DNA from: Candidatus Melainabacteria bacterium
GTDB taxonomy: Bacteria; Cyanobacteriota; Vampirovibrionia; Obscuribacterales; Obscuribacteraceae
Direction of reading: 5' to 3'
NCBI GenBank assembly: GCA_027451745.1
Contig: DAIDIP010000017.1
Location: 1-64,000 of the forward strand
DNA: 64,000 bases
Under the pieces are notes generated by a model. The model did no database searches. It saw nothing but the letters and a program-made list of their open reading frames with translations, and was not told where the DNA came from. Below, piece after piece: positions 13,405-54,812 of the stretch. Within the stretch, counting starts at the first letter, position 1; the number at the start of each line of letters is the position of its first letter. Both the position numbers and the translations under genes were made by a program.

Positions 13405-15405
13405 ATGGTACCAGGAGAAAAAGGAAACTATCATATAAGCGCTGCCTCGGCTCCGTTCCACTCGCCTCAACGCGCGTATTTTACCTTGTGTCTTAGCGTA
13501 GCTGTGATTTTGTCTTCGACTAGCTGTGCTCATAATTCTGTAGATGTAAGACAAGCAGGCATTTCAGGACGTACTTTGCTTAGCAGCCTTAGACCAAAAG
13601 CAGATCCTGCTATGGTAGCTCATATTCGTGAAGAAGAACAAAAAGAAGCTCAAAAGCGAGCTCAAGCAGCTATTTATGCCGAGACTGCTGGCGCTGAACA
13701 AAATCAATTCGGTTTAGACAGGGTTTTGCCAAAAGTTTCAAATGAACCATTTAGCAGTTCCATTATTGCCCCAGCGGCAGAAAATGTTAGTGCAGATGGA
13801 GTCATTATATCGGGGCACGATAGCAAGCCTGATCCTAATCGTGCTGTGTATCATCCTTCCAACCCAGTGTCTAGCTACGACACTTATGGTTCAGTTCCAC
13901 CACCACCGCCTGGGGCCTTAGGCGGCGGATTAGTGCCTCCACCTCCAGCAGTTACATTATCCACCCAAGCCCAAGCTTATGCCGGAGCTATAGCTGATTC
14001 TGCTGCGTCTTTTTATAACAATCCATATTTTAACCCATTTGGTGTACCTACTCCTCCCCAAGCCCTAGCTTCCGCAACGCCTAACAGAAGACCAGCTGGT
14101 TTATTTGGCGAAGGTGGTGCTCGCGATCAAACAGATGAATATGGTGCTAAAAAGCACAAAGCAGACTTTGTGCCCATTACTCCTAAAGGTATGGAATCTC
14201 GTTCCCCATATAAACAAAGAGATGATTTGCGAGTTCTATGGAAAGGCGCTCTAAAATCGTCTGTGAATCTTGGCGGTCTATCAGAAAACGACAAATTAAT
14301 TGAACAATTGTCCCATCTTGATATTGGCTTGCCAGCTGAATCAACTAAGGGAAGTTTCAATATTTCTCCTCGTCTAATTGAGTCTTTATTTAAATCATCC
14401 ACTATCGACAAACGTGCCTTCCCTGAAATACGTAAATTGCAAAGCGAATTAGTGCAAGCATATTATCGTTATCTTTGTTCTTATAACAAATATGCATTAG
14501 CCGAGCAAACTGTTGCAGCTCGCAAACAAGAAATAGAATTATCTGAATCAGATTCGGAAAAACAAAGAGCAGCAGCAGATTTAGCTCAGACACAAAGTGA
14601 TTTAGAAGCCTGCAAAGACGATCTTCACTCAAGTGAAGTTGAATTAGCCGCAGCAAGTTCAACTGGCAGCGCTAGAACTGTCATTAGCCACATCGCCGGT
14701 ACTGCTCCTTCAGTGGAGGCACTTACTCAAGGGATATCTCAAAGTGGTTTGCGTAATAATGCTAGTCATCAAAGAAAACTAACCGGCTTTTTTGACACAA
14801 TGTTCAAGCATCCTCATTCTGCAAATACTGAAAATACAGCTTCTGAAGACAACAGTATTGTCACCAAAAAAGCTAAAGACGATAATGACGATCTACCAAG
14901 TAAGTATAAAGACAAAGCCCCGGCAACAGAAAAAGTAAGCAGTGTCAAAAGTAAAGGCGGATTATTCGGTCGCAAAGTTGCCCATATTGACGATAACGCA
15001 GATACCGCAAAACAAACAACCAAAAATGAAATTGCCAGCGATGATGATTTAAGTCCTGCGCCTAAAGCAGTAAGCAAAGTTGCTGAAAGCAAAAGTGTTG
15101 CTACTGCTAATAGCAATATTAGCTTTGTTCTTAAAAATGTGAGCGTAAATCCTCGCAAATCAGTTTTAAATGTAGTAGTTAAAAATTCCGGTTCTGATCC
15201 TTTCGAATTAAATCCAGATACTATTTATATAGCAGAAGGTAATCGTAAATTAGGATCTGCTGCCTTAAGAGCAGATTTTGATATTACTTCTATAGAACCA
15301 AACCAAGAAGTGAAGGGCGTTATTACCATTTTTAGCCGTCCATGGAATGACCGCCTGGTCATTTATTTAGCTGATGGCAACAAAACAGTACAACTTAAAC
15401 GATAA
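13405..15405 (+). CDS. Probable lipoprotein of the secretion-like locus (666 aa)
   Basis: After an unusual N-terminal extension (residues 1-24) comes a hydrophobic segment ending in SSTSC, a plausible lipobox with Cys at about residue 44. The middle has Pro-rich stretches (PPPPPGAL; VPPPPAVTL), then a helical coiled-coil-like region at about 335-415 (QAYYRYLCSYNKYALAEQ, then Glu/Gln/Ala-rich). The C-terminal 100 residues look like a beta-sandwich (NISFVLKNVSVNPRKSVLNVVV). Such a domain would suit an outer-membrane collar component, but I cannot name it. The N-terminal extension is encoded by a copy of the dispersed element described at 13439. Confidence 0.62.
   Translation: MVPGEKGNYHISAASAPFHSPQRAYFTLCLSVAVILSSTSCAHNSVDVRQAGISGRTLLSSLRPKADPAMVAHIREEEQKEAQKRAQAAIYAETAGAEQNQFGLDRVLPKVSNEPFSSSIIAPAAENVSADGVIISGHDSKPDPNRAVYHPSNPVSSYDTYGSVPPPPPGALGGGLVPPPPAVTLSTQAQAYAGAIADSAASFYNNPYFNPFGVPTPPQALASATPNRRPAGLFGEGGARDQTDEYGAKKHKADFVPITPKGMESRSPYKQRDDLRVLWKGALKSSVNLGGLSENDKLIEQLSHLDIGLPAESTKGSFNISPRLIESLFKSSTIDKRAFPEIRKLQSELVQAYYRYLCSYNKYALAEQTVAARKQEIELSESDSEKQRAAADLAQTQSDLEACKDDLHSSEVELAAASSTGSARTVISHIAGTAPSVEALTQGISQSGLRNNASHQRKLTGFFDTMFKHPHSANTENTASEDNSIVTKKAKDDNDDLPSKYKDKAPATEKVSSVKSKGGLFGRKVAHIDDNADTAKQTTKNEIASDDDLSPAPKAVSKVAESKSVATANSNISFVLKNVSVNPRKSVLNVVVKNSGSDPFELNPDTIYIAEGNRKLGSAALRADFDITSIEPNQEVKGVITIFSRPWNDRLVIYLADGNKTVQLKR
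13439..13488 (+). repeat. Dispersed AGCGCT/ACGCGCGT element, copy inside a coding region
   Basis: The stretch AGCGCTGCCT near 13439, a GC-rich middle and ACGCGCGTA near 13470 (followed by TTTTACCTTG) match the layout of the tandem array at 48616-48836 (there read on the minus strand). Here it lies in frame at the start of the lipoprotein gene and is read as ISAASAPFHSPQRAYF, just before the hydrophobic signal core. The shared end motifs are palindromic hexamer/octamer sequences. The middle is only partly conserved, so the copy is old or of another subtype. Confidence 0.5.
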
Positions 15406-48397: not shown

Positions 48398-48422
48398 AGC
48401 AAATAAAATGCAAATAATAATA

Positions 48423-48495
<73 letters not shown>

Positions 48496-48600
48496 ATAAT
48501 GCGCCCGGTAAAGCTTCTATGAGCACCCATAGCTTGCCAAATATATCACATTAGTGTGGTCAAGTAGCAGGCTGCGAAACGGAGCGGAACGAAATGAAAT

Positions 48601-48836
48601 ATAGCTTGGCCAAAGCAGCGCTAAAGAATGACAGAAGGAGATATGGCGGAACGAAGGGCGGCTATGCCGTCCGAAGTAAAGCGTCTGTACGCGCGTCTGG
48701 GCAAGCGGAGCGCAGACCAGGCAGTGCTAAAAGTTTAGATGGATGAAGTGAAGCGAACGGCGACGGTGAGGCGGCGGAAGCTGAACGAAGTAAAGTACGC
48801 GCGTCTGGGCAAGCGGAGCGCAGACCAGGCAGCGCT
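48601..48836 (-). repeat. Tandem array of three degenerate ~106-base GC-rich units (AGCGCT/ACGCGCGT element)
   Basis: Read on the minus strand, units begin with AGCGCT at 48836, AGCACT at 48728 and AGCGCT at 48622, at spacings of 108 and 106 bases. The first two share an identical 37-base core (plus-strand 48796-48832 and 48688-48724) that ends in ACGCGCGTA and is followed by a CTTTACTTCG motif, with a six-base insertion in the second. The third is more diverged (AGCGCTGCTTTGG, then CGTTCCGC). The region is markedly GC-rich against its surroundings. It fills the gap of about 340 bases between tRNA-Phe and the gene ending at 48836, whose stop codon touches the first unit. No gene is seen in it. 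Confidence 0.75.
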
Positions 48837-49471
48837 TAATATATAGACGAGCTTTGTGTGGATATTTGATTGTTTATCCCAACGATGCGCAAACCTGTAT
48901 CGCCTTTGCGAACTAATAAATTCATTTGAACTTGATTTGCTGCCGGTCTAGCATTTGCTGATTGCATTACCAAAGTTCCATTCAAGCTCACGACGATTGA
49001 ATGGTCAGGGTTAATTGCCACTGCCCTTATCGAAATTGGTTGGAAAGCGCCTACTGACGCTCCAGAGCATACTTGTTGAGATATTTCGGGTGTCCAAAAA
49101 GCTTCATTGAAAGCTTTTAAGGTTTCAGGTGACATCCAATTAGCGGCTGCTTCATGACTTTGAGCAGCAGATTTAGGGGTAAAATCCATTGCTGCTTTCA
49201 TCCACCATTTAACAAAATCCACTGCCAGAGCAGGATCTAATTGTACTTTTTTTGCATAATCATTTGCTGGCACACTAGCGTCTGTTGACTCAGAATTATT
49301 TTTAGAAGGCATACTCTGGCTTTGAGCGAGCTTACTTACAGGTGGTTCATCTTTATTACCGTTGTTGAAGCCGCCAACAAAAAAGCCAAGTAAACAGACA
49401 ATAAGAAGCCCTAGGAGAATCTTATCGTTAAATATTCTTTGTATCGTTGTCCTGACAATATCCTGAAACAT
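48836..49471 (-). CDS. Membrane-anchored protein, possibly VirB8/TraE-like (211 aa)
   Basis: One membrane span (about 18-36) is followed by a Ser/Asn-rich linker. A helical part (VDFVKWWMKAAMDFTPKSAAQSHE, then WMSPETLKAFNEAFW) and strands (ISIRAVAINPDHSIVVSLNGTLVMQ; QVQMNLLVRKGDTGLRIVGI) follow. This order (anchor, helices, WMSPE, then strands with a central VxVxG) is like the NTF2-like periplasmic domain of VirB8/TraE. That would tie it to the secretion-like locus 23 kb away, but the call is tentative. ATG at 49471 with GGGA upstream is preferred to GTG at 49489. Its TAA stop abuts the repeat array. Confidence 0.55.
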   Translation of the reverse strand: MFQDIVRTTIQRIFNDKILLGLLIVCLLGFFVGGFNNGNKDEPPVSKLAQSQSMPSKNNSESTDASVPANDYAKKVQLDPALAVDFVKWWMKAAMDFTPKSAAQSHEAAANWMSPETLKAFNEAFWTPEISQQVCSGASVGAFQPISIRAVAINPDHSIVVSLNGTLVMQSANARPAANQVQMNLLVRKGDTGLRIVGINNQISTQSSSIY

Positions 49472-49691
49472 AAAACGGTTCCCAAACACAATTAGCGGCT
49501 ACCAGTCCATAGATTATGAATTTCCTAAAATAAATATGGACTATTTGCTAATTTAGTGCCCATTTTATCAATTTGCTTAACTTGTCTGGCGATTTATTCT
49601 AAAATCTAGCTCTTATAATATCTCTTATGGAAAACTAGTCTTCTGGGAATTCAGAACTTGAGGAAAGCATAAGCTTTAAGGACAGCACTCA

Positions 49692-53612: not shown

Positions 53613-54812
53613 GTGAGTCTGGAAATCCTAATTATCAGACTATCTGCCCTGGGTGATGTGGTGCATACACTACCGGTGGCGGCAGCTATAAAACGTTATT
53701 TACCCGACGCAAAAGTAACTTGGGTGGTGCAAGATTTAGCTGCTCCCCTGCTGAAAGACAATCCAGCTGTGGATAATGTCATCATATTCCCAGGAAAAGC
53801 TATGCTACCAGGATCGGTGGCTTCACCGCCCGCGGTTAGTTCTATACGTGAGCGCTGCCTCGCCTTCGTGCCTTGGCTCAACGCGCGTAAAGACGCTTGC
53901 CAAACTGACGGCTCTTCGCCGCCAGTGGCTCGCTCTATTTCGTCTTTAGCCCTCCTAAACCAGTTCTGGGGGGGATTTAAGTCTAGACGTTATGACATCG
54001 CCATTGATGCCCAAGGACTTCTTAAAAGCGCTCTTTTATGTTGGTTATCAGGTGCCAAAACCCGTATAGGCTTTGCCAATACCCGTGAATGGGCAGACAA
54101 ATTCCTCACCCATCCGGTTGATGTAGGTGATTATTTTGGACCTGATATACATATAGTAGATTTAAATCTTAAGCTTGTTGTTAAATTGTTCGATGTTCTT
54201 GGTAATAATGTGCCAGCTAACTGGGTAAATGCTCAATTCTCATTACCGGTGGTGCCTCAGCTTATAAAAGAACGGGTACAATCCTGGCTGCCTAGTTCAA
54301 AGCAGCGTCTAGAAAACATCATTCTAATACCAGGCACCACGTGGGACACTAAAATATGGCCGCTAGAAAAATGGGAAGAATTAGGAAAACGGTTATTAGA
54401 CAACAATTATTACCGCATCATTATATGTGGTGGCAGATCTGATTTAGCTATCAACAAAAAACTGGAAAAACGTCTTTCTAGTTGTGATAATCAAAAGATC
54501 ATTAATCTCACGGGTCGGACAAACCTTATCGATCTAATAGCCTTATTTGAACAATCTCAACTTGTAATAGGCGCTGATAGTGGACCAATACATTTAGCTA
54601 GTGCGGTAAGCAAACCAAAAGTGGTGGCTATTCATGGCGCTACACCGTGGAAACGAAACGGACCTTATGGAAAACTTGGACATGCTATTGCACTCAATCT
54701 AGAATGCCAGCCATGTTTTGAAAAACAATGCCCACTTCATACATTAGCCTGCTTGAAAGACCTTAGCGCTGAACAAGCCTTTCACGAAGTAAATGCATTC
54801 GTGGAAAAATAA
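53613..54812 (+). CDS. Heptosyltransferase (glycosyltransferase family 9) with an internal insertion
   Basis: Transfers ADP-heptose-type sugars to the lipopolysaccharide core. Family motifs are the opening IIRLSALGDVVHTLPVAAAIK, RRYDIAIDAQGLLKSALL, PGTTWDTKIWPLEKWEEL and IGADSGPIHLASAV. At 399 residues it is longer than the roughly 350 usual for the family. The excess, about residues 68-112, lies between the first strand region (DNVIIFPGKAML) and FKSRRYDIAID. It has a GC-rich sequence unlike its flanks and matches the dispersed element. The frame is intact, so the product may still fold with an extra loop. The start is GTG. Confidence 0.85.
   Translation: MSLEILIIRLSALGDVVHTLPVAAAIKRYLPDAKVTWVVQDLAAPLLKDNPAVDNVIIFPGKAMLPGSVASPPAVSSIRERCLAFVPWLNARKDACQTDGSSPPVARSISSLALLNQFWGGFKSRRYDIAIDAQGLLKSALLCWLSGAKTRIGFANTREWADKFLTHPVDVGDYFGPDIHIVDLNLKLVVKLFDVLGNNVPANWVNAQFSLPVVPQLIKERVQSWLPSSKQRLENIILIPGTTWDTKIWPLEKWEELGKRLLDNNYYRIIICGGRSDLAINKKLEKRLSSCDNQKIINLTGRTNLIDLIALFEQSQLVIGADSGPIHLASAVSKPKVVAIHGATPWKRNGPYGKLGHAIALNLECQPCFEKQCPLHTLACLKDLSAEQAFHEVNAFVEK
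53800..53945 (+). repeat. Dispersed AGCGCT/ACGCGCGT element inserted in the heptosyltransferase gene
   Basis: AGCGCTGCCTCGCC starts at 53851, ACGCGCGTAAAGACGCTT begins at 53881, and GACGGC...CGCCGCC follows. On the minus strand the second unit of the 48.6-48.8 kb array reads AGCACTGCCTGGTC, ACGCGCGTACAGACGCTT and GACGGC...GCCGCCC in the same order and near-identical spacing. Here the element is read in a different frame from the copy at 13439. The outer borders are set by GC composition and are approximate. Confidence 0.6.

Follow-up and report, generated by a model that had tools for sequence, protein, structure and literature searches.

A dispersed, tandemly repeated element with a two-hairpin fold in one family of non-photosynthetic Cyanobacteriota

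The array beside tRNA-Phe and its repeat family

The window, meaning the whole 64,000-nt stretch of contig DAIDIP010000017.1 from a Candidatus Melainabacteria bacterium (Obscuribacteraceae), contains a tandem array at positions 48601–48836, flanked by a tRNA-Phe gene and by a 217-aa gene that gave no match in Pfam or NCBIfam (Table 1). The array consists of two full units and a fragment of a third, for which the covariance model described below gives no full-unit match. Units 1 and 2 have the same hairpin 1, the 3′ one of two predicted hairpins, and different hairpins 2. The 3′ end of unit 1 touches the stop codon of the 217-aa gene. A preliminary description had read three units on the minus strand, starting with AGCGCT at 48836, AGCACT at 48728 and AGCGCT at 48622, and these starts hold. 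The identical stretch that it saw in two units is indeed present (38 bases, CTGCCTGGTCTGCGCTCCGCTTGCCCAGACGCGCGTAC, ending ACGCGCGTAC), but the repeat unit is about 95–112 bp and not the 37-bp core. Likewise, AGCGCT and ACGCGCGT are both self-complementary, but the element is defined by two hairpins that form on the opposite strand rather than by these end motifs. The informative strand is the purine-rich plus strand, not the minus strand used in that description.

A BLAST search of the array against the whole genome revealed more copies on many contigs, and the pattern ACGCGCGTA occurs 41 times with both strands counted, versus 17 times for a reversed control. We built a covariance model (R1) from an alignment of 32 copies (A2) and counted matches at E <= 0.1. 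This genome-wide profile scan did find the further copies that had been anticipated, with 57 matches in the 3.0-Mb genome (G000) and 93 in G001, the only same-genus genome compared, in which many copies form arrays of near-identical 110–112-bp units. R1 also found copies in eight more genera of the same family, none in the other families of the class, and no match in any of the 243 genomes outside the family in the phylum sample. Chance is excluded because there are 57 matches in the own genome and none in these 243. With a model pooled over genera (R2), 21 of the 50 genomes and 14 of the 24 genera of the family are carriers; there are 47 copies here, 80 in G001, 76 in G008 and 36 in G136, and several genera have none. 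The array is part of a dispersed repeat family with a unit of about 95–112 bp. Photosystem I genes are present in other classes of the phylum and absent from the sampled genomes of this class, indicating that the host is a member of a cyanobacterial class that lacks photosynthesis, probably Vampirovibrionia.

No match over the element was obtained from Rfam 15 at gathering or relaxed thresholds, and an sX4 hit in one locus (L193) was set aside as lying mostly over a tRNA. Phage, plasmid and viral collections gave no match to the element either. The freely accessible journal papers covered on this lineage describe no such repeats, and the family is apparently undescribed.

The position of the array beside tRNA-Phe had been taken as a possible source or accumulation site. 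A role as a special source was rejected because similar arrays occur at many other places, most of which have no tRNA. Four element loci in this genome adjoin a tRNA gene (Phe, Met, Leu and Ser), a mild excess at most. Across the family, high copy numbers are found mostly in smaller genomes (2.3–4.4 Mb; G079 and G087 are exceptions), and genera with 5–9-Mb genomes mostly have few or no copies. One contig of this assembly (L011, or G000:C32 position 1) starts inside an element array, suggesting that arrays break the assembly and that the copy numbers are probably underestimates. A second small palindrome, with GGCATATAAGTTATGCC as its core and GGCGTATAAATTACGCC among its variants, turns up repeatedly within main-element copies and looks as though it replaced or extended a hairpin.

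Table 1. Positions of the array, of the copies inside genes and of related loci (window coordinates unless a locus or contig is named)
Feature	Position	Strand	Basis or remark
Putative lipoprotein gene	13405–15405	+	ORF; N-terminus includes an element copy
Element copy in lipoprotein gene	13438–13531	-	R1 51.5 bits; only the hairpin 1 half (~13438–13484) is well conserved
tRNA-Phe adjoining the array	48422–48496	-	ARAGORN, Rfam tRNA
Third-unit remnant	48601–48622	+	retains just the hairpin 1 3′ arm (AGCGCTGCTTTGG... on the minus strand); start at 48622
Array unit 2, full	48639–48728	+	R1 57.9 bits, E 1.7e-9
Array unit 1, full	48741–48836	+ (structured strand)	hairpin 2, linker, hairpin 1; R1 80.4 bits, E 2.0e-14
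Hairpin 1 of unit 1	48795–48836	+	GCGC GUCUGG...CCAGGC A GCGC; GTCTGG subfamily; RNA fold of the plus strand
217-aa gene	48836–49489	-	ORF; stop codon at the end of unit 1
Heptosyltransferase-like host gene	53613–54812	+	TIGR02193/TIGR02195 hits below curated cut-offs; orthologues
Stretch of heptosyltransferase-like gene holding the insertion	53847–53963	-	102 nt longer than in the same-genus orthologue (L078); model match 53851–53940, minus strand, R1 69.9 bits
tRNA-adjoining element loci	window 48422–48496; L115 1901–1976; L127 1609–1691; L170 2106–2192
Example arrays in G001	C16:21474–22013; C9:10728–11140; C3:91604–92024
Second-palindrome sites	L015 ~1540; G000:C8:90655–90774; G000:C6:30907–31042; L055; L100 ~10740; L109 ~8740

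Two hairpins on the purine-rich strand

Aligned copies show that the purine-rich strand, which is the plus strand of the window array, forms two hairpins when single-stranded. Hairpin 2 has a 7-bp stem whose sequence is free but complementary (for example, GGAUUCC/GGAAUCC, GGAAAGC/GCUUUCC and GCAUUGC/GCAAUGC). The loop has the conserved form C-GNNGA-G, in most copies GAGGA or GGUGA with a closing C-G, and GC pairs and symmetric GAA/GAA-like 3x3 internal loops flank the stem. Hairpin 1 has the form GCGC...GCGC with purine-rich internal loops and is followed by UUAUAAA. It contains GUUGA-GGC...GCC-GAGGC in this genus and GGAGGA...GACGGA in other genera, while the GTCTGG subfamily found in the window has a UG/CA in place of the GA/GA step. 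The consensus pairs of hairpin 1 of unit 1 show compensatory changes.

An automatic alignment of mixed subfamilies hid this fold, which emerged once the copies had been trimmed and the pairing scheme written by hand. In copies aligned by eye, changes in two regions complement each other. In the A2 alignment of 32 copies with a hand-written 19-pair structure, 88.4% of the cells are paired (24–52% in slid controls), and two-sided changes occur in 12 pairs versus 6.3 in shuffles. Fitting to the model biases alignments A3 and A4 towards its structure; in an alignment of this kind, the 55 copies from other genera, none of which had been used in the model, have 89.5% of the cells paired, 173 double-change cells versus 48 in shuffles, and a covariation of 0.455 versus 0.141. 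For the pooled 87 copies, there are 272 double-change cells versus 74 in shuffles, and the covariation is 0.460 versus 0.164 in shuffles and at most 0.067 in slid controls. The wobble cells comprise 123 G.U versus 17 A.C, and this excess indicates that the fold belongs to the purine-rich strand in single-stranded form. The simplest reading of this form is RNA; alternatively, it may be single-stranded DNA. The MFE fold of one copy (L180) contains the same two hairpins as the consensus, and single-copy folding energies in this genus are not better than those of shuffles.

Placement beside start codons and inside genes

Copies in this genome are almost all intergenic and are found in every orientation relative to both neighbours. 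Protein genes had been pointed out as the home of relatives of the array; there are two clear cases, an exception among about 45 loci, the rest of which are intergenic. Hairpin 1, at the 3′ end, usually lies 0–20 nt from a gene boundary, which is either the start codon of a codirectional gene or, as in the window array, the stop codon of an opposing gene. The 3′ end lies within 25 nt of a gene start in 21 of the 45 loci of this genome and in 15 of the 50 copies from other genera, and the distance is exactly +6 in seven cases each. Pooled, 14 of 36 starts are at +6 (binomial 3e-11 under a uniform null, with heuristic ORF-called starts). This spacing gives GCGCU-UAUAAA-AUG, and the 3′ end of the element reads GGAG/GAGG...GCGCUUAUAAA. 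Judging from their N-terminal sequences, the abutted genes look like core genes, including hemW, der, clpC, glmS, a sucD-like gene, a sugar-phosphate nucleotidyltransferase gene and a glpD-like gene. GGAG-type copies, with types counted by eye, are enriched at start-abutting places in this genome (6/8 versus 3/38, p = 2e-4).

We compared orthologous upstream regions. Those of clpC align between G001 and G000; in place of the native leader, which reads ...GTCGCGGGGACGT-ATG in G001, G000 has one partial and one full unit that end in GGAGCGATTATACA-ATG. G001 also lacks the element at its der and BtpA-like genes. Both genomes retain the native GAGGAG of a 2-oxoacid oxidoreductase gene, and the element sits upstream of this motif. 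Two modes thus exist, in which the native ribosome-binding site is replaced or the element is inserted upstream of it. The 3′ end of the element probably supplies the ribosome-binding leader of the genes that it abuts. This probable leader function is new here and is strong in the placement statistics. We tentatively go one step further: the element might be a folded ribosome-binding-site cassette that moves, a selfish repeat with a 3′ end that already forms a translation start region. It would land directly before a core gene, replace the native leader and keep the gene expressed, and would thereby give clpC, der, glmS and others a structured, possibly switchable 5′ UTR.

The same observations could be explained if the element were primarily a cis-regulatory RNA leader of the host, in which hairpin 1 hides or exposes the GGAG/GAGG and controls downstream translation, and whose copies spread as modules. 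The fold conserved with compensatory changes, the fixed +6 spacing across genera and the replaced leader at clpC all fit such a role. However, many copies are antisense to a gene or follow one, in all orientation combinations, near-identical units form tandem arrays, and genera differ widely in copy number, from 0 to 80. We therefore consider this explanation improbable, and the mixed orientation led us to reject cis-regulation as the only role.

The heptosyltransferase-like gene contains a copy at 53851 that had been described as in frame, and R1 confirms it (E 4.0e-12 per genome). The flanks GGTTAGTYCTATA and TTCTGG are common to this gene and its G001 orthologue. They enclose 117 nt in the former and 15 nt in the latter, so the two genes differ by 102 nt, or 34 codons, in frame. 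The orthologues of the same-genus genome and of 15 more relatives lack the segment at this place, and the G+C content of the insert region is 57% versus 42.5% in the rest of the gene. The copy is a real, lineage-specific in-frame insertion. The same-genus gene (L078) has about 30–40 extra residues unrelated to the element immediately before the position that corresponds to 53846 of the window, suggesting that this loop tolerates length change.

The copy at the start of the putative lipoprotein gene (13439) was likewise recovered (E 4.3e-8 per genome). It replaces the N-terminus and supplies the N-terminal, arginine-containing part of a predicted signal peptide, and the N-termini of five orthologues are different. 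The two intragenic copies both run antisense to their genes. This orientation is usually open in all three frames (31–35 of 45 copies per frame), so a copy whose length is divisible by three could be tolerated in a protein. No conserved sense frame was found in this genome, where sense frames are no more open than shuffles. A lack of further genomic copies, and orthologues in distant relatives with the same segment in place, had been named as signs against a genuine element; neither was found, and the element is real.

Mobility and comparison with known repeats

At eight orthologous sites, an element is present here and absent from G001. One further site is occupied in both genomes with different unit numbers, and at another, G001 has a diverged relative of the element. 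The eight empty sites show gain or loss within the genus; gains are likely, and some of the sites could reflect losses. The flanks are not significantly duplicated (permutation p = 0.20), and a few suggestive duplications were seen by eye, such as ATAAATAGAA on both sides of G000:C1:6975. A search for mobilizing enzymes covered Y1 transposase and reverse transcriptase and found no candidate: Y1 transposase (PF01797) has no match in G000, G008 or G001, the last only 71% complete, and the distribution of reverse transcriptases does not correlate with the carrier genomes. On inspection, the ends of the element also differ, with AAWUUUAGCG on the hairpin 2 side and GCGCUUAUA on the hairpin 1 side.

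These results bear on whether the element is a classical MITE or a REP-like element moved by a known transposase, either of an inverted-repeat IS or of the Y1/RAYT type. Its size, intergenic placement, hairpins and empty sites would agree with this. Against it stand the lack of a Y1 transposase match in the high-copy G008 and in both genomes of the genus (G001 being 71% complete), the absence of target duplication, and two ends that on inspection are not mutual inverted repeats, which together make this explanation unlikely, and slightly more so than a regulatory leader. An origin of many GC-rich low-complexity sequences by slippage, without common descent, might be suggested by the GCGAA/CTTCG-like words and the unremarkable folding z-scores of single copies, but it is effectively refuted by covariation far above shuffles and slid controls and by the restriction to the family, with no match in the 243 phylum genomes outside it.

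We regard it as quite likely that the element is a dispersed repeat of about 95–112 bp, non-autonomous and confined to one bacterial family, that folds as a two-hairpin single strand, spreads in trans and amplifies in tandem by local duplication. The data show the family, the fold with its strand, the tandem arrays, the occupied or empty state of orthologous sites and the heptosyltransferase copy inserted in frame, and this reading adds a mechanism. A trans-acting machinery would recognize the folded single strand and spread the element, and arrays would then grow through local duplication. Survivors would mostly occupy short gaps between genes, in either orientation. A sense copy, through the GGAG/GAGG that its 3′ end carries at a fixed distance, could take over as ribosome-binding leader of the next gene, and an antisense copy with a length that is a multiple of three could be tolerated inside a protein.

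This apparently undescribed structured repeat reaches up to about 90 matches per genome in a non-photosynthetic class of the cyanobacterial phylum. The fold is kept across genera while the sequence turns over, providing a natural experiment on recognition by a mobilizing factor. The constant distance from the start codon suggests a way in which repeats can survive insertion beside core genes. The heptosyltransferase copy, with its empty-site control, adds another lineage to the rare repeats tolerated in proteins.

Rickettsial RPEs are dispersed repeats of about 100–150 bp with hairpins, some copies of which lie in frame in protein genes (PMC3767692, PMC10969869). They are described from Rickettsia and Wolbachia and have a conserved encoded peptide, and nearly half of the RPEs reported in R. 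conorii are in ORFs (PMC10969869). The earlier analogy to RPEs is fair in view of the heptosyltransferase copy inserted in frame, and the element resembles them in being dispersed, 95–112 bp long and made of two hairpins. By description rather than by sequence comparison, it differs in that only about 2 of 45 loci are in ORFs and that there is no conserved sense frame. The bcr1–bcr18 repeats of the Bacillus cereus group are lineage-specific and interspersed in intergenic regions; bcr1 has mobile-element traits, and some families have a conserved secondary structure and occur in 5′ UTRs (PMC3446304). The element is similar in kind, with no homology claimed, as it is lineage-specific, multicopy and intergenic with a conserved fold and orthologous presence or absence. 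However, it belongs to another phylum and has one structure across many genera, tandem arrays and a fixed start-codon spacing. REP and BIME elements form imperfect hairpins, are often clustered and are mostly extragenic with some inside genes, and REPs are 20–40 bp long with a terminal GTAG or CGTC tag (PMC3733652). The element shares with REP/RAYT systems the hairpins, the clusters and the mostly extragenic placement with some copies in genes, but it is about 100 bp long, has two hairpins and occurs in a genus without a Y1 transposase match. The element shows no significant target-site duplication, and its ends, where inspected, are not the terminal inverted repeats of a MITE. Mycobacterial interspersed repetitive units (MIRUs) are intergenic tandem repeats that abut start codons, as this element does, and they carry a small ORF. 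A MIRU-like small ORF was ruled out here, as there is no conserved sense frame. The element lacks at least one tested defining feature each of RPEs, MITEs and REP/RAYT elements and is in no known family tested, but it works like an RPE, bcr or REP element.
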